NCBI GenBank assembly: GCA_018711525.1
Contig: DVIF01000084.1
Location: 1 to 44,075 of the forward strand
Direction of reading: 5' to 3'
Length of the DNA: 44,075 bases
Source of the DNA: Candidatus Ornithospirochaeta stercorigallinarum
Lineage (GTDB): Bacteria; Spirochaetota; Spirochaetia; Sphaerochaetales; Sphaerochaetaceae
In this document: one piece after another, positions 13,890 through 23,946 of the stretch
Position numbering within the stretch: the first letter of the stretch is position 1
How the letters are laid out: every line of letters begins with the position of its first letter
Notes under the pieces: model-generated
The model's database searches: none
Told to the model about the DNA's origin: nothing
What the model saw: only the letters and a program-made list of their open reading frames with translations
Position numbers and translations under genes: made by a program

Positions 13890-15566
13890 TCAGTCACCCA
13901 TGTCGATGAAACCGATCATATCACTGATTGACGCTCCTGGGGCGACCATCGGATAGACCTTGTCATCTGTAGGAATCTCACAATCGACGACTACTGCCTC
14001 ACCGAGCTCGACAGCGGCCTTCAATACCGCCTCAGGGTCGTCATCTGCACTCAGGCGCATGCCTTTGACGCCGTAGGCGTTTGCAAGTGCAACCCAGTCG
14101 ATCGGGGTATCGAGAGTGGTCTCGGAATAGTGCTTGTCATAGAAAAGGGTCTGCCACTGCCTTACCATTCCAAGACAATGGTTGTTCATCACGAGGATGA
14201 TGATGGGAAGACGGTAGCGTGCGATTGTCGCAAGCTCATTGCAGTTCATCCTGAACGAGCCGTCTCCCGCGATGTTCACAACCTTCGTCTCAGGATGGGA
14301 GACCTGGGCGCCGATTGCAGCTCCCGTTCCAAATCCCATTGTCCCAAGTCCACCGCTTGTAAGATATCTTCTCGGTCTTATCGATTTGAGATACTGGGTA
14401 GCCCACATCTGATGCTGTCCGACTTCTGTCGAGATGATATTATCCTCTGGAAGCACACGCTCAAGAGCAGCAAGGATCTCCCTGCTTCTCCTGCTTTCCG
14501 TAGTAATCCTGAGAGGGAAGCGTCTTCTGTTGTCTTCAATCACCTTCATCCACTCCTCATGACTGAGCTGAGGTGTGCGATGGAGAAGCTTCTCGAGGAT
14601 GACCTTCACATCCCCTATGACATGCTGATGGGAATAGATGTTCTTATTAATCTCCGCAGGGTCCACATCGATCTGAAGAACCTTAGCCTGACGGGCGAAA
14701 GTACTTCCGTTGGAGATGACCCTGTCGGAGAAGCGGGCACCGATTACGACCAGAAGGTCGCACATGTTGACACTCATGTTGCTCAGTTTCGTGCCATGCA
14801 TGCCTACCATGCCTGTGAAGCGCGGGTTATCAGCACTTACAGATCCCAGCCCCATGAGAGTGGAGCAGCATGGTGCATCGACCTTCTCCAGGAACTTGTT
14901 CAACTCCTCTGATGCATCACTTCTGATGACACCTCCTCCGATGTAGAACATAGGACGCTTTGCGGCCTTGAGCATCTCGACAGCCCTATCTATGTCCTTC
15001 TCCTCGAGGCGGTCGACACGTGGAAGAACCTTCTCACTCTCCTTCCTCTCGTACTCGACAGTGCCGACCTGGAGGTCCTTCGGTACATCTATGAGCACAG
15101 GACCCGGACGGCCCTCCCTTGCAATCCTGAACGCCTCCCTCACGGTATCGGCAAGCTCCTCTATATCCTTGACGATATAGTTATGCTTTGTTATGGGCAT
15201 GGTTATGCCCGAGATATCGACCTCCTGGAAGCTGTCACGTCCAAGAAGGGAAAGTGGGACGTTTCCCGTGATGGCCACAACAGGGGATGAATCCATGTAT
15301 GCAGTAGCAAGACCTGTTACGAGGTTTGTTGCTCCCGGTCCGCTGGTTGCGATGCAGACTCCGACCTTTCCCGTGCTTCTGGCATAGCCGTCAGCCGCAT
15401 GGCTTGCACCCTGCTCATGTGCAGTAAGGATATGCCTTATCCTTCCCTTGTATTCATATATCGCATCATAAAGAGGTATGACCTGACCGCCTGGATAGCC
15501 GAAGACAGTATCAACACCCTCTTCCAAAAGACATTCGATGATTACTTCTGCTCCTGTCAACCTCAT
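13890..15566 (-). CDS. ilvB: Acetolactate synthase large (catalytic) subunit
   Basis: 558 residues. A ThDP- and FAD-dependent enzyme making acetolactate from pyruvate, or acetohydroxybutyrate with 2-ketobutyrate. It has GYPGGQVIPLYD, catalytic Glu51 in LTAHEQGASH, SGPGATN, and the ThDP-binding motif GDGSFRMN...ARYRLPIIILVMNN near residues 430-460. It is the last gene of the branched-chain operon: its ATG overlaps the ilvD stop in TAATG, with GGGAGGAG ahead. The regulatory partner IlvN is encoded at the opposite end of the same operon, an unusual separation of two subunits that normally sit side by side. Confidence 0.96.
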   Translation of the reverse strand: MRLTGAEVIIECLLEEGVDTVFGYPGGQVIPLYDAIYEYKGRIRHILTAHEQGASHAADGYARSTGKVGVCIATSGPGATNLVTGLATAYMDSSPVVAITGNVPLSLLGRDSFQEVDISGITMPITKHNYIVKDIEELADTVREAFRIAREGRPGPVLIDVPKDLQVGTVEYERKESEKVLPRVDRLEEKDIDRAVEMLKAAKRPMFYIGGGVIRSDASEELNKFLEKVDAPCCSTLMGLGSVSADNPRFTGMVGMHGTKLSNMSVNMCDLLVVIGARFSDRVISNGSTFARQAKVLQIDVDPAEINKNIYSHQHVIGDVKVILEKLLHRTPQLSHEEWMKVIEDNRRRFPLRITTESRRSREILAALERVLPEDNIISTEVGQHQMWATQYLKSIRPRRYLTSGGLGTMGFGTGAAIGAQVSHPETKVVNIAGDGSFRMNCNELATIARYRLPIIILVMNNHCLGMVRQWQTLFYDKHYSETTLDTPIDWVALANAYGVKGMRLSADDDPEAVLKAAVELGEAVVVDCEIPTDDKVYPMVAPGASISDMIGFIDMGD

Positions 15567-17239
15567 TACTCCTCCCTTAGAACGGCACCCTTGTCTGCAG
15601 ATGAAACATGCAGTGAATACCTATAGAGGTAACCCGACTTAATGGGGCACTCCTTTATCTTCAGATTCCTTCTTCTCTCTGCGAGGATCTTCTCATCAAC
15701 AAGAAGGTTGAGGCTGTGCTTGTCGATATCGATCTCGATCATATCACCCTCCTCCACCAGTGCTATCGGGCCTCCGTCCGCAGCCTCCGGGGAGCAATGC
15801 CCGATTGAGGCGCCTCTCGTAGCTCCCGAGAACCTTCCATCTGTGATGAGAGCGACTTGCTTATCGAGTCCCATGCCTGCGATTGCGGATGTGGGTGAAA
15901 GCATCTCCCTCATTCCCGGGCCTCCCTTAGGACCTTCGTAGCGGATTATTACGACGTCCCCGCTCTTTATCTTCGAGCTGTAGATGGCATCAATCGCCTC
16001 CTCCTCGCTGTTGAAGACACGTGCCGGCCCTGTATGCTTCATCATCTCAGGGGCAACCGCACTTCTTTTGACGACAGCCCCATCCGGAGCAAGAGTTCCA
16101 GAGAGGACTGCAAGCCCTCCCGTCTGGGAATAAGGCTCTTCAATAGGCCTGATCACCGAGCTGTCGTAGTTCTTCGCATTCGCAAAGCTCTCTCCGATGG
16201 TCTTTCCTGTGACTGTGATCAAATTTCTATGAAGGAGATCCTTCTTATCAAGCTCATGCATGACGGCCATCACCCCTCCTGCAAGCTCGAGATCCTCCAT
16301 ATGGTGGCTTCCCGCAGGTGCAAGATGACAGAGGTTCGGCACCTCAGCACTGTACCTGTTCGCATCAAAGATGTCGATCTCAATCCCCACCTCGTGTGCG
16401 ATTGCAGGGATATGAAGCATCGTATTCGTGCTGCAGCCAAGTGCCATATCCACCTTGAGGGCATTCTCGAACGCCTCCTTTGTCAGGATGTCCCTTGGCC
16501 TGATATCCTTCTCAAGAAGCTCCATGATCTTATATCCCGCCTCTTTTGCAAGACGCTCCCTGGCGGCATATACAGCAGGGATCGTACCGTTTCCAGGAAG
16601 GGCCATTCCAATAGCCTCTGAAAGGCAGTTCATGCTGTTTGCAGTATACATTCCCGAGCAGGAGCCGCAGGTAGGACAAGCAGAGTTCTCCCATGCGAGG
16701 AACTCCTCATCGTCCATCTTTCCCGCCTTTCTCCTTCCTACAGCCTCGAACATGCTGCTCAGGCTCATGCCTCTCTTATCCCCGCCGCGCACATGGCCTG
16801 CAAGCATCGGACCGCCTGAGACGAAGATTGAGGGAAGATTCATCCTTCCTGCGGCCATGAGCATCCCCGGTACGATCTTGTCGCAGTTGGGAATGAATAC
16901 GAGAGCATCGAACGGGTGTGCTGTCGCCATCACCTCGATGCTGTCCCTGATCAGCTCACGGGAACAGAGGGAATACTTCATTCCCGTATGCCCCATGGCA
17001 ATTCCGTCGCAGACTCCGATTACAGGGAATGACACTGGATTGCCCCCAGCCTCCCTTACTCCTGCCTTTACGGCCTCGACAATACGATCAAGCTCCTTGT
17101 GGCCAGGGATTATCTCGTTGAAACCTGAGACGATTCCAACGATTGGCATCGCTATCTCCCTGTCTGTCCAGCCAAGAGCCTTCATCAATGATCTATGAGG
17201 GGCTTTCTCCTCCCCCTTCTTCATGCTGTCGCTTCTCAT
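15566..17239 (-). CDS. ilvD: Dihydroxy-acid dehydratase
   Basis: 557 residues. An Fe-S enzyme dehydrating 2,3-dihydroxy-isovalerate/-methylvalerate to the keto acids, the common third step of valine and isoleucine synthesis. Motifs: [34 protein letters not shown] and [17 protein letters not shown] provide the cluster cysteines, and [14 protein letters not shown] lies near the C-terminus. The ATG at 17239 is used because it overlaps the leuB stop (ATGA) with GGGAG upstream and gives the family N-terminus; an in-frame start 28 codons earlier would run into leuB. Confidence 0.97.
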
Positions 17240-18303
17240 TTCATCATCTCCCTGATCTTTTCTCCCATCTCCTTTGTTCCGATATGGCCTTCTCCATCCC
17301 TTGCGATATCGAAAGTACGCCATCCTGCATTGATGACATCTTCAACCGCATTCTCTATCGCCTCAGCCTCAGCATCCATATCGAAGCTGTAGCGGAGCAT
17401 GGAAGCTGCAGAGAGTATCGTGGCTATCGGATTTGCGATATCCTTTCCTGCGATATCAGGGGCGGAGCCGTGGATGGGCTCGTACATACCCCTCCTTCCA
17501 CTTCCAAGGGATGCGGATGAGAGCATTCCTATGCTGCCTGTGATCATGCTTGCCTCGTCCGAGAGGATGTCTCCGAACATATTCTCGGTGACTATGACAT
17601 CGAACTGCATAGGATTCCTTACAAGCTGCATTGCAGCATTGTCCACATACATATGGTTGAGCTCCACTTCCGGGTAGTCCTTTGCGACCTCTGTGACGAC
17701 CTTCCTCCAGAGTCTGGATGTCTCCAGGACGTTGGCCTTATCGACACTTGTGACCTTCCTTCTCCTCTTCATTGCTGCATCGAAGGCCTTACGTGCGATC
17801 CTGTCGATCTCCTCGACGGAATACTTCATAAGGTCAGAGGCCCATGAGGAGTCCGAGGCAAGTGTCTTCTCTCCGAAATAGATGCCACCTGTGAGCTCAC
17901 GGACGATCATAATGTCGATTCCATCCCCTATGATGCTGCTCTTAAGAGGAGATGCATCTTCAAGGGCCTTGTACATCAGGGCCGGACGGAGGTTGCAGAA
18001 AAGACCAAGTCCGCTTCTCAGTCCCAGGAGGGCCTTCTCTGGTCTGAGCTTTCCTTCCATCTTATCCCATTTGGGACCGCCGACAGCTCCAAGAAGGACA
18101 CTGTCCGCACTTCTGGCCCTCTCAAGGGTCTCATCTGTGAGAGGAACGCCATACTCATCTATCGAGGCTCCTCCTGCAAGAAGGTATTCGAACTCGAATT
18201 CATGCCCATAGAGAGAGGCCACCTTCTCAAGGGTCTGGACCGCCTCGTTTATGATATCCGGTCCGATACCGTCCCCTGCTATTACTGCAATATGCTTCTT
18301 CAT
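17236..18303 (-). CDS. leuB: 3-isopropylmalate dehydrogenase
   Basis: 355 residues. NAD-dependent oxidative decarboxylation of 3-isopropylmalate to 2-ketoisocaproate in leucine synthesis. Family marks are [13 protein letters not shown] at the N-terminus, [47 protein letters not shown] with the metal-binding aspartates, and [18 protein letters not shown] for the NAD site. Its start overlaps the leuD stop by one base (TGATG) and its stop overlaps ilvD. Confidence 0.97.
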
Positions 18304-18794
18304 CAGTAGTTCTCCTTCATGTACGCTGCAAGACCGCCTGCATTGATCAGATCCTGCATGAAAGGAGGGAACGGCTCTGCATGATATACCTTTCCCGTCG
18401 TCTCATCCGTGATCGTCCCGCTTGTGAAATCGACTTTGACCTCATCCCCCGCATTGATCTCCCTGCTTGCATCCTCACACTCAAGGATCGGCAGTCCGAT
18501 GTTTATGGAATTACGGTAGAAGATACGGGCGAATGATGTAGCGATCACACAGCTTACTCCGCTTTCCTTTATGGCGATCGGAGCATGCTCGCGTGAGGAT
18601 CCGCAGCCGAAGTTCCTCCCTGCCACGATGATATCCCCATCTTTCACATTCTTGATGAAATCCTTGTCTATGTCCTCCATGCAGTGGGAGGCAAGCTCCC
18701 TGGGGTCGCTTGTGTTCAAATAACGGGCAGGGATGATTACATCCGTATCCACGTTATCATTATACTTGAAAACCTTACCCTCTCTTACCATCAT
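18303..18794 (-). CDS. leuD: 3-isopropylmalate dehydratase small subunit
   Basis: 163 residues, the short archaeal/clostridial form. It has [38 protein letters not shown] and [15 protein letters not shown]-like swivel-domain motifs. With LeuC it isomerises 2- to 3-isopropylmalate. The start was set at 18794 (ATG overlapping the leuC stop, GGAGG four bases upstream); the next codon is also ATG and is equally possible. The open frame extends 64 codons into leuC but that part is not homologous to the family. Confidence 0.95.
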
Positions 18795-20056
18795 CTGACC
18801 TCCTCGAGACTGGATGGATCCGTGATATAACCTGTAACAGCACTTGCCGCAGCCGCATAAGGGCTGGCAAGGTAGACCTCGCTCTTTATATGCCCCATCC
18901 TGCCGACGAAGTTGCGGTTTGTCGTGCTGATACATCTTTCCCCTTCTGCAAGGATACCCATATAACCGCCAAGGCAGGGTCCGCATGTAGGTGTAGAGAC
19001 CACAGCTCCCGCTTCAATGAAGATATCGAAAAGACCTTCATCCATTGCCTCCTTCCATATCTTCTGAGTTGCCGGGATTATGATGCACCTTACATCCGGG
19101 GATACCTTCCTTCCCTTGAGGACCTCCGCTGCGGCCCTCATGTCGCTGATTCTTCCATTCGTGCAGCTTCCGATTACGACCTGGTCGATCTTTATGGAGG
19201 ATGAATCCTTTACAAGATGTGTGTTCTCAGGAAGATGAGGATAGCTTACTGTAAGGTCGATCTGCGATAAATCAAGTTCTATCACCTCGGAATACTCTGC
19301 ATCCTCATCGGCTGTGAATATCTTAGGCTCTCTAGCCCCAGAGGCTCTCAGATATTCAAGAGTCTTCTCATCCACTGGGAATATTCCAGTCTTTCCACCT
19401 GCCTCGATGGCCATGTTGGAGATTGTGAACCTGTCGTCCATGCTGAGCTCTGCAACCCCTGGTCCTGTGAATTCAAGACTCTTATAAAGTGCACCGTCGA
19501 CACCGATCTTTCCAATCAGGTGCAGGATGACATCCTTTCCTGTGACATATCTCCTGAGCCTGCCTGTAAGATTGACCTTGATCGTCTCAGGGACTTTGAA
19601 CCAGGCCTTTCCTGTTGCCATTCCACATGCCATATCGGTCGAACCGACACCGGCGGAGAAAGCTCCAAGCGCACCATATGTACATGTATGGCTGTCGGCT
19701 CCGATAACGACATCCCCTGCTGTCACAAGCCCTTTCTCCGGGAGGAGGGCATGCTCTATACCCATTCTTCCGACTTCAAAATAATTCTTTATCTCTTCAG
19801 ATTTTGCAAAAGCTCTTACACAGGCACACTGCTCTGCCGCCTTGATATCCTTATTAGGAACGAAATGGTCTGGCACAAGTGCTACCTTGGTCTTATCGAA
19901 TACATGTTCCTTGCCGAACTTCGGGAACTCCCTTATGGCGACTGGACTTGTGATGTCATTGCCAAGGACCATATCAAGGTCCGCCATTATAAGCTGTCCT
20001 GGATGCACGGAATCCAGATGTGCTCCGTGCGCCAGGATCTTTTCAGTCATGTTCAT
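18791..20056 (-). CDS. leuC: 3-isopropylmalate dehydratase large subunit
   Basis: 421 residues, aconitase-superfamily [4Fe-4S] dehydratase, the short HACN/LeuC-2 type that pairs with a ~163-residue small subunit. Motifs: [33 protein letters not shown] and [13 protein letters not shown] supply the three cluster cysteines. The start overlaps the leuA stop (TAATG). This type can act on isopropylmalate, homoaconitate or citramalate-derived substrates. The operon setting with leuA, leuB and leuD makes leucine synthesis by far the most likely role. Confidence 0.95.
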
Positions 20057-21660
20057 TATTCTTCCACCCCGCTTTTATCTGTATGGCCCATGAGCATATC
20101 GTTCTCAAAACTCATCTGAACTGCACTCTGGCTCGTTCCGATGGCTTTCGAATTCTCACTGAGCATCTTGTTCACCGCATTCAAACACGCAAGGATGCTT
20201 GCCTCGATTACGTCTGTGGAAACACCCCTGCCCCTGTAGACTCCGCTCTGGTCGGAAATCTTCACAAAGACCTCTCCAAGGGCATCCCTGTCCTCGGTTA
20301 CAGCTGTAAGCTGGTACTCCTCAAGGCTGAAAGGATGCTTGATGATCTTCTCAACACATCTGAGGGAGGCATATACAGGACCCGTTCCGCTTGCAACCTC
20401 CTGATAGATCTTCTCATTGTTCTTCTTCAGTGAGATGCATGCAGTGCTTGTCATCCTGTTTCCGCTGTTGACGACGAATGAATCGAGCGCCCATGTCTGG
20501 GTCTCAGGATTCTCAAGGGCCTCAACAAGGGCGATGAGGTCACGGTCGGTGATGTTCTTCTTCCTGTCGCAGGTCTTCTTGAACTCTGAGAAAAGGGCAT
20601 CCTCCCTCTCTTTGGTAAGATTGTATCCGAGCTCCTGCATCTTCTTGGAGAAGGCATGCTGCCCGGAGTGCTTTCCAAGTACGAGGTTCGTCTTGACAAC
20701 GCCAACCGACTCAGGTGTCATTATCTCATATGTAAGGCTGTTGGCCATCATCCCATGCTGGTGGATTCCCGACTCATGGGCGAAGGCATTATCCCCGACG
20801 ATGGCTTTAGATGGGTTGATCTTCACACCTGTAGTACTGGAAAGAAGGCGTGCGGACCTTGCAATCTCCTCGGTCACGATTCCTGTGTAGAAACCGAATT
20901 TGTCCCCTCTTGTCTTGATAGCCATGACGATCTCTTCAAGAGCTGCGTTGCCCGCTCTCTCTCCGATTCCACAGACGGTGCACTCGACCTGTCTGGCTCC
21001 AGCCTCGATTCCAGCAAGGGTGTTGGCAACGGCAAGTCCGAGATCGTTGTGGTTGTGCATGCTTATGATCGCCTTGTCTATGTTCTTGACATGCTTCTTG
21101 ACATAGTCGACCATCGCGGCAATCTCTGTCGGAGTCGCATAGCCGACTGTATCTGGAAGGTTTACAGTCGTAGCTCCGCACTCGATTGCTGTCTCCACTG
21201 CAAGTGCAAGGTATTCCAGATCGGTTCTGCTTGCATCCTCGCAGCTGAACTCTATGTCGTCACAAAGGCTCTTTGCGTATGTGACATTCTCCCTGATCCT
21301 CCTTATGGCCTCCTCCCTGCTCATCTTGAGCTTATATTCAAGATGAAGGTCGCTGGTAGCCAGAAAGACATGGATCCTCGGATGCTTTGCGTTCTTTACG
21401 GCATTCCATGCGGCATCTATATCCTTTTTAAGTGCACGTGCAAGGGATGCCACAACGGGCTTCTCGACGGCTGAGGCGATTGCCTCAACCGATTCGAAGT
21501 CACCGGGGGATGAGATGGCAAAGCCCGCTTCGATAATATCTACGCCCAGTCTCTCGAGCTGGCGTGCCATCCTGATTTTCTCTTCCAGGTTCATACTATA
21601 GCCCGGAGCCTGTTCTCCATCACGGAGAGTGGTGTCGAATATGTAAATCCTCTCTGCCAT
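20056..21660 (-). CDS. leuA: 2-isopropylmalate synthase
   Basis: 534 residues. It condenses acetyl-CoA with 2-ketoisovalerate, the committed step to leucine. The TIM-barrel part has [16 protein letters not shown] (metal and catalytic Asp/Arg), [12 protein letters not shown], and [16 protein letters not shown] with the metal-binding HNH. It also has [13 protein letters not shown] and [10 protein letters not shown]. The C-terminal ~130 residues (after about 400) fit the LeuA allosteric domain that binds leucine for feedback inhibition. Citramalate synthase (CimA) is the main alternative, but the TIM-barrel motifs and the leuCDB neighbours favour LeuA. It lies 19 bases after ilvC. Confidence 0.95.
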
Positions 21661-21679
21661 CTGCGTCCTCCAAAAGTTC

Positions 21680-23216
<1,537 letters not shown>

Positions 23217-23232
23217 CCCCTTCTCCTCCTTC

Positions 23233-23275
23233 AAAATAAAAAAAATCAGCCCATGGAATTAATACTTCCACGGGC
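23233..23275 (-). terminator. Attenuator terminator in the ilv/leu leader
   Basis: On the minus strand GCCCGTGGAA (23275-23266) pairs with TTCCATGGGC (23258-23249) through a 10-bp stem with one G-U pair and a 7-base loop. TGA and eight T follow. It sits before the ilvN ribosome binding site, so it would stop transcription before the operon. Confidence 0.85.
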
Positions 23276-23311
23276 CTATGCAAAACATATACTGCAACCG
23301 TGGTTCAGTAT
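23268..23311 (-). promoter_or_regulatory. Antiterminator and pause hairpin segments of the ilv/leu attenuator
   Basis: CCACGG (23303-23298, minus strand) can pair with CCGTGG (23273-23268), which is also the 5' arm of the terminator, so the two structures exclude each other. The same CCACGG can instead be enclosed in a hairpin formed by ATACTG (23311-23306) and CAGTAT (23294-23289), which overlaps the leader stop codon. This is the classic 1:2 / 2:3 / 3:4 arrangement. Confidence 0.7.
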
Positions 23312-23376
23312 GTAATGAGTAGGACTAGAACTAGAAGAGAAGAAAGAGATAATATAGTATTCTTAATAGATGTCAT
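23305..23376 (-). CDS. ilv/leu operon leader peptide (attenuation)
   Basis: A 23-codon ORF with a strong ribosome binding site (AGGAGGGG, seven bases before the ATG). Twelve of its 23 residues are branched-chain: 7 Leu, 2 Val and 3 Ile, clustered as LSSLLVLVLLI near the end, with three CTA leucine codons. The stop codon falls inside the first leader hairpin. A ribosome stalled for lack of charged tRNA-Leu, -Val or -Ile would let the antiterminator form; one that finishes would favour the terminator. This is inferred from position, composition and structure, and matches the ilv/leu leader logic known from enterobacteria. Confidence 0.85.
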   Translation of the reverse strand: MTSIKNTILSLSSLLVLVLLITY

Positions 23377-23421
23377 ATTATTTCCCCTCCTCCCTAAAAT
23401 GATATTCTTGTTTATGCTCTC

Positions 23422-23451
23422 CTTTTACTCCAAAGGATATTTTCTTGTCAA
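23422..23451 (-). promoter_or_regulatory. Promoter of the ilv/leu operon
   Basis: A perfect TTGACA (minus strand, 23451-23446), an 18-base spacer and TAAAAG (23427-23422) precede the leader peptide ORF by about 45 bases. The -10 match is imperfect. Confidence 0.55.
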
Positions 23452-23946
23452 TCTGAAATAATCACTTTTTTATTCAACTTTTGCAAAATAATGATTATTC
23501 AAGGAATATTTATGCAGAATCAATCATTTTTCACACTTATTTCCAGTCTTTTTCCTCATTTTCAGCTCTGACATACCGCTGGTTGCGGCTTGTAGGCTTG
23601 TTTAGAATCGTCATCTTCAGCCCCCCTTTCCAAGCAAGGGAACAAGGTACCTGGAACGGAAACTCTTTTTATCTGAAAGATCCAGAAAATCCATTATCTC
23701 AATTACACTGCGAGGCGTAGCGGTACAAAAGAGGATTATATTACTTTCTGTTTCTGTAACTTGGGGAACTACTTTTCCAGATTATATTCTATCTGTAAGA
23801 GGGATATAAAATCAAAAATGGAAAGAGCTATCAGAGAAAAAGAAATAAAGCAAAGAAAAAGACCTGAGAAAGTACCCTATTTGATAGGGGTATTGAAAGG
23901 GGATTGAAAAAGAGAATGGCCTCCAGATCTAGAGGACGTTGATAGG
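23452..23946. other. Gene-poor stretch between the ilv/leu promoter and a small membrane protein gene
   Basis: About 500 bases without a convincing gene. A 79-codon open frame at 23481-23720 has no ribosome binding site and no family resemblance. The palindrome AATAATGATTATT lies near 23487-23499 and a small CCCTAT/ATAGGG hairpin at 23875-23889. I see no tRNA or insertion sequence. The region may be decayed accessory DNA. Confidence 0.5.

Follow-up and report, generated by a model that had tools for sequence, protein, structure and literature searches.

A candidate ribosome-mediated attenuator ahead of the ilv-leu operon of an uncultured spirochaete and its relatives

Introduction

What controls an eight-gene ilv-leu operon carried on a spirochaete contig, and can the short ORF rich in Leu, Val and Ile codons ahead of its first gene, ilvN, be read as the leader peptide of a transcription attenuator, as an initial annotation of the sequence had proposed? 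Most known cases of attenuation by stalled ribosomes come from Proteobacteria and Actinobacteria, and examples from Firmicutes were added later. In the enterobacterial ilvGMEDA (ilvL) and leuABCD (leuL) attenuators, a Leu/Val/Ile-rich leader precedes competing 2:3 and 3:4 stems and a U-tract terminator, and the leuL leader contains rare CUA codons. The T-box senses uncharged tRNA directly. Here, we combine sequence reading, RNA folding against shuffled controls and comparison across spirochaete genomes to assess how this operon may be regulated.

Host genome and operon

The stretch of DNA analysed (the window) is a whole contig of 44,075 bases from a 1.93-Mb genome that is 83% complete. The nearest relatives of its ilvN lie in uncultured Spirochaetaceae and Spirochaetales genomes and in Candidatus Ornithospirochaeta stercoripullorum, and 19 of 28 related ilvN loci are spirochaetal, the other 9 belonging to Bacillota. 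These relatives identify the host as a spirochaete, a point that the initial annotation had left conditional, and we take its genus to be that of Candidatus Ornithospirochaeta. The uncultured host probably comes from the gut, judging from the Candidatus Ornithospirochaeta relative only. Eight minus-strand ORFs, running from 23216 down to 13890, encode proteins that match NCBIfam models of the named enzymes in the order previously given, ilvN-ilvC-leuA-leuC-leuD-leuB-ilvD-ilvB. The features discussed below, all on the minus strand, are as follows, from the presumed promoter to the end of the operon.

23446..23451, minus strand: -35-like hexamer TTGACA of the presumed operon promoter (sequence; 39/41 same-genus loci)
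23427-23422, minus strand: weak -10, TAAAAG, with an 18-nt spacer (reading of the sequence)
23384..23394, minus strand: Shine-Dalgarno of the leader, GGGAGGAGGGG (sequence)
23305..23376, minus strand: leader ORF, MTSIKNTILSLSSLLVLVLLITY and stop; ATG at 23376, stop TGA at 23307-23305 (sequence, genus conservation)
23289..23311, minus strand: predicted stop-codon hairpin of the 1:2 type, AUACUG...CAGUAU, which would sequester region 2 (fold, -7.0 kcal/mol, z -2.4)
23298..23303, minus strand: region 2, CCACGG, 1 nt past the leader stop (sequence)
23268..23273, minus strand: region 3, CCGTGG, partner of region 2 (antiterminator) or of region 4 (terminator) (CCCGTGG in 40/40 genus leaders)
23248..23258, minus strand: region 4, TTCCATGGGCT, terminator 3' arm (fold, -18.6 kcal/mol, z -5.8)
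23238..23245, minus strand: T8 tract of the predicted intrinsic terminator, 21 nt upstream of the ilvN start (sequence)
22665..23216, minus strand: ilvN, acetolactate synthase small subunit, first gene of the operon; ATG at 23216 (NCBIfam TIGR00119, E 5e-57)
13890..22741, minus strand: ilvC, leuA, leuC, leuD, leuB, ilvD and ilvB, the rest of the presumed operon (closely spaced or overlapping ORFs, NCBIfam matches)

Parts of the attenuator in the window

The leader has 23 codons, 12 of which specify branched-chain residues (7 Leu, 3 Ile, 2 Val). Its first half reads ATG ACA TCT ATT AAG AAT ACT ATA TTA TCT CTT TCT and its second half TCT CTT CTA GTT CTA GTC CTA CTC ATT ACA TAC TGA, so that the control codons, numbered -10 to -3 before the stop, are CTT CTA GTT CTA GTC CTA CTC ATT; the rare CTA accounts for 3 of the 7 Leu codons. 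The predicted terminator stem (23276-23248) is followed by GA and then by the T8 tract, and the leader stop lies 88 nt from the ilvN start with the terminator and T8 in between. The Shine-Dalgarno, the leader with its composition, the hairpin spanning the stop, the competing CCACGG and CCGTGG pairings and the T8 terminator ahead of ilvN are thus all found as the initial annotation had described them, in the minus-strand sequence and, for the structures, in the fold. The 183-nt leader region as a whole folds to -49.1 kcal/mol, against a mean of -35.5 for dinucleotide shuffles (z -3.4; 1 of 200 as low).

To gauge how singular this arrangement is, both strands of the 44-kb window were scanned with a detector that asks for a Shine-Dalgarno, a short ORF in which 6 or more of 8 successive codons are Leu/Ile/Val, and a hairpin with a T-run no further than 110 nt away. 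It returned one site, the ilvN leader; when the terminator condition was dropped it returned 10 leader-like ORFs, 9 of them besides the ilvN leader. Among the parts of the attenuator, confidence is lowest for the promoter. The hexamer TTGACA claimed for it is present, and 39 of 41 same-genus loci have it ahead of the leader, but the element at 23451-23446 was not listed by a promoter consensus scan of the window because its -10 (TAAAAG, 18-nt spacer) is poor. Among these 39 loci, 24 carry GTATAA 12-30 nt downstream of the hexamer, and the window locus is not one of them.

No Rfam family reached its gathering score anywhere in the window, T-box RF00230 included, and over 23200-23500 a search up to E 10 gave no leader family, the 7 matches belonging to unrelated families far below their thresholds. 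T-boxes themselves are present throughout the genus, with matches (E <= 0.001) in all 48 genomes, 41 of them over the gathering score; that of the window's own genome lies before thrS and not before ilv (G000:C68:16838-17066, L213). A genus search for a his leader, by five His codons in a row, showed none among the 30 loci listed.

Conservation across the genus

The same-genus set comprised 48 genomes, including the window's own, of which 41 had an ilvN match (E <= 0.001); all 41 upstream regions were read. A Leu/Ile/Val-rich leader precedes ilvN in 40 of the 41 loci, window included, and an SD-like motif accompanies the leader ORF in the same proportion (40/41). The detector for leader plus terminator found 38 of 41 sense and 0 of 41 antisense regions, and the detector for the leader by itself 40 of 41 and 5 of 41. 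The exception, L067 (G032), has ilvN and an upstream region without leader, CCACGG switch or terminator; it is perhaps a natural loss of the attenuator. The spirochaete loci among the 28 ilvN relatives carry the same leaders, but overlap the same-genus genomes and were not counted again, and no such leader was seen on reading the upstream regions of the 9 Bacillota relatives.

Aligning the 40 leaders at their stop codons reveals a nearly fixed geometry, although the sequences are related and the counts therefore not independent. Leu, Ile or Val stands at both -3 and -4 in all 40 (codon -3: Ile 33, Leu 7; codon -4: Val 21, Ile 10, Leu 9), at codon -2 in 4 (Leu or Ile; other residues in 36) and at codon -1 in none. 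Region 2 begins 1 nt past the stop in 34 leaders, directly after it (0 nt) in 5 and 2 nt past it in 1, and is itself nearly invariant (CCACGG 35, CCACGA 3, CCGCGG 2); region 3 is invariant. The last 13 codons of the 40 leaders include 167 Leu codons, 34% of them CTA; the share of CTA is 2.4% in 20 genes of the window (752 Leu codons) and 1.7% in the ilvN genes of the genus (707 Leu codons). What is directly observed is the sequence of the parts, how far the genus conserves them, and this spacing.

Folding and covariation

For each of the 40 leaders (37 distinct sequences), three segments were folded and each was compared to 100 dinucleotide shuffles. The mean z was -1.6 for the stop hairpin, -2.6 for the antiterminator 2:3 and -3.5 for the terminator 3:4, with at most five shuffles as low in 21, 29 and 32 of the 37 sequences, respectively. 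In several genomes the stop-codon hairpin folds no better than shuffles (z about 0: L039, L043, L044, L065) and therefore may not be general. Some genomes have a predicted 2:3 pairing that exceeds 3:4 in stability (for example L048: -14.7 versus -10.3 kcal/mol), and termination there would therefore depend on a ribosome masking region 2. In silico, mutually exclusive antiterminator and terminator stems and a U tract are found before the first gene.

The initial annotation had looked to related genomes for conserved branched-chain codons and for covariation in the two stems. The codons are conserved, as set out above, but covariation is limited: a consensus fold on a MAFFT alignment predicts the terminator with two-sided change in 1 of 6 pairs. 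Few such changes are expected if region 3 must pair with both region 2 and region 4, and the alignment gives no positive proof. Changes in the stop hairpin that may be compensating are visible by eye in the folds, for example UGCU/AGCA to AGCU/AGCU. A separate pairing, prominent in the minimum-energy fold, between the leader Shine-Dalgarno and the leader's own pyrimidine-rich codons was considered and rejected, since it is barely above synonymous recodings (mean z -0.7 over the 40 leaders; window z 0.0).

Proposed mechanism and rival explanations

From sequence and folding models, we put at roughly 90% the probability that this locus is a ribosome-mediated transcription attenuator by which the eight-gene ilv-leu operon answers the charging of tRNA-Leu, tRNA-Val and tRNA-Ile; genus conservation, fixed spacing and folds set against shuffles all support the attenuation originally claimed. 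From these data we infer that the ribosome is coupled to transcription, that termination takes place and which way the operon responds. Translation of the leader would start just behind RNA polymerase. With branched-chain amino acids ample, a ribosome at the stop codon would mask CCACGG (region 2), region 3 would then pair with region 4, and transcription would stop at the T8 tract. With Leu, Val or Ile short, the ribosome would stall at codons -10 to -3, three of which are the rare CTA; region 2, left free, would pair with region 3, no terminator would form and the polymerase would run into ilvN. If the leader were not translated, region 2 would be hidden by the stop-codon hairpin and termination favoured.

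This scheme makes a geometrical prediction, namely that stalling at codon -3 should place the front edge of the ribosome just short of region 2. Passages of PMC4833913 state that a ribosome covers ~12 nt beyond the codon it translates. With the P site at codon -4 and an empty A site at -3, a cover of ~12 nt would reach the leader stop and leave region 2 just free; counted from codon -3, the same 12 nt would by simple arithmetic reach 1-2 nt into region 2. The expected geometry, in which a stop-bound ribosome covers region 2 and a stalled one does not, therefore fits well only to within about one codon. Stall geometry would also explain why the last shared control codon is at -3, with other residues at -2 (36/40) and -1 (40/40).

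A different use of the peptide would be as a nascent-chain arrest sequence that senses a drug or metabolite and not codon supply, its arrest motif being the conserved SS-LLLSVLVITC end. Some residues of that end do recur (Ser at -7 in 30/40, Thr at -2 in 28/40, Cys at -1 in 28/40), yet codon -1 lies inside the predicted stop-codon hairpin in many genomes, which can explain part of this conservation, and Thr-Cys gives way to Arg-Ser, Thr-Arg, Lys-Arg, Asn-Ser or Thr-Tyr. Leu, Ile and Val swap at -3 and -4, and also at -6 and -5 with 1 and 2 exceptions, while the residue class is kept; such interchange at control positions points to one sensor common to the three amino acids and speaks against a sequence-specific arrest peptide. 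Since rare CTA codons are enriched and the downstream operon makes Leu, Ile and Val, we consider an arrest peptide very improbable.

Slightly less credit still is due to a constitutive intrinsic terminator preceded by a fortuitous hydrophobic ORF, such as one for a small membrane protein. Small hydrophobic ORFs are indeed common, with 9 terminator-less examples elsewhere in the window, 5 among the 41 antisense upstream regions and a second one further upstream in several relatives; however, a single site in the window unites leader and terminator, and a plain terminator would have no use for CCACGG:CCGTGG pairing or for a constant spacing between the stop and region 2. The faintest chance of the three goes to a leader that acts by translational coupling or reinitiation at ilvN, and not through transcription termination. 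Passages of PMC4833913 propose reinitiation where leader genes lie near structural genes, Spirochaetales included, but the 88 nt between leader stop and ilvN exceed the peaks of 10-16 bp described there and contain a strong predicted terminator with its T8 tract.

Distribution among other spirochaetes

To follow the attenuator beyond the genus, ilvN was used to retrieve 13 genomes of the same family from five further genera, and their upstream regions were read. One genus (g5: L106, L108, L109, L111, L113) has the full design in 5 of 5 genomes: region 2 lies 1 nt past the stop, Leu-Ile occupies -4 and -3 with other residues at -2 and -1, and CCGTGG and a T-tract are present, the terminator arms being identified by reading. 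The remaining eight genomes, from four genera (g9: L102, L103, L105, L107; g2: L101, L104; g6: L110; g7: L112), keep the leader and an antiterminator-like pairing. There, the stop of a long Leu/Ile/Val-rich ORF with uncertain start codon lies 0-1 nt upstream of CCACGG (TCACGG in L101), or 6 nt upstream in L110, and CCGTGG (CGTGG in L112) follows 15-25 nt past CCACGG. Codons -3 to -1 are Leu, Ile or Val in all eight, and the spacing rule of the genus therefore does not hold there. Sphaerochaeta is presumably among these four genera.

No clear T-tract terminator was seen in the eight-genome group: five consecutive T are absent ahead of ilvN in 7 of the 8 and occur only in L110, at a distance of 40 nt from the gene. 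A loose terminator test over the family set gave weak candidates before ilvN in L103 and L110. Separately, reading shows a CCGTGG...CCACGG hairpin following in L101, L104 and L110, with no T-run directly behind it. It is possible, though we hold the idea only tentatively, that the eight genomes join the same sensor to another output, such as termination that depends on Rho or accessibility of the ilvN start site, the intrinsic-terminator version of the window being one of two outputs. Sister leaders of this kind offer a test of one sensor joined to different outputs. An RNA model (R1) run over 392 genomes of the phylum gave 20 matches, 16 in the window's genus (g1) and 4 in genus g5 of the same family, and is not a sensitive survey, having missed G363 (L106), whose leader is plain by reading.

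We also surveyed 56 ilvN loci from 24 other families of the phylum, picked from the matches listed and not a random sample; the survey covers the fetched ilvN stretches, some of them short (less than 200 nt upstream in L140, about 70 nt before ilvB in L222). The leader-plus-terminator detector found 5 sense and 0 antisense cases, and reading added two (L168, L217). Together these are branched-chain attenuators of unrelated-looking sequence before ilvD-ilvB-ilvN (L160, L214, L215, L216, L217, L168, L220), in family f24 (5/5 examined) and family f42 (2/2 examined). These leaders stop at TAG or TAA. Next comes GGCGGCGG, GGCAGCGG or a close variant, after it CCCGCTGCC or a close variant, and finally CAGCGGG with a T-run. 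By their sequence, these second-type leaders appear to be built on the same logic as the ilvN attenuator in other letters. The leader-plus-terminator filter gave nothing at the remaining 49 of the 56 loci.

Relation to known systems

The spirochaete leader resembles enterobacterial ilvL and leuL in its branched-chain codons, its rare CUA, its 2:3 and 3:4 stems, its U-tract terminator and the cognate operon downstream. Unlike them, it has no detectable Rfam relation, its region 2 begins 1 nt past the leader stop, and one attenuator would control a joint ilv and leu operon headed by ilvN. With the T-box (RF00230) it shares control of RNA by amino acid supply through terminator and antiterminator, but the window contains no RF00230 match. 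Short ORFs with runs of Ile/Val/Leu codons and terminator hairpins are described before ilv in Corynebacterium, Mycobacterium and Streptomyces in parts of PMC1262725, PMC10272879 and PMC11857589; as far as those passages go, the present leader is similar in its runs and terminator and differs in phylum, gene order and sequence. For Streptomyces coelicolor, a passage of PMC1262725 describes candidate codon changes without effect on ilvB regulation. A Firmicutes branched-chain attenuator peptide figures in part of PMC5794164. Among spirochaetes, the Leptospira ilvB motif WRC-14-1 (7 sequences, discussed as a possible riboswitch in a section of PMC8632094) is likewise a structured RNA candidate before a branched-chain gene, set apart from ours by its description there.

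Our literature search found no spirochaete leader-peptide attenuator; it did not extend to the Lopatovskaya 2010 survey, and absence from print is not established. In our reading, the locus is a real attenuator by a known mechanism, not a new mechanism, in a phylum for which no report was found. Two unrelated-looking spirochaete leaders in different families add to the case for repeated origin of attenuation, and the nearly fixed distance from the last control codon to region 2 across the 40-genome set provides a natural ruler for the reach of a stalled ribosome.

Further observations in the genus

Seven of the 48 same-genus genomes (G003, G004, G005, G014, G030, G031, G040) gave no ilvN match and are perhaps branched-chain auxotrophs or incomplete assemblies; G003, G004, G005, G030 and G031, all in this group, have more than one T-box match. 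At a number of other loci (L039, L043-L046, L048, L049, L053, L055-L058, L060, L062), a second small hydrophobic ORF of the MEAIIICLLGGIIIWALVKK type lies upstream of the attenuator, about 250-327 nt before ilvN.
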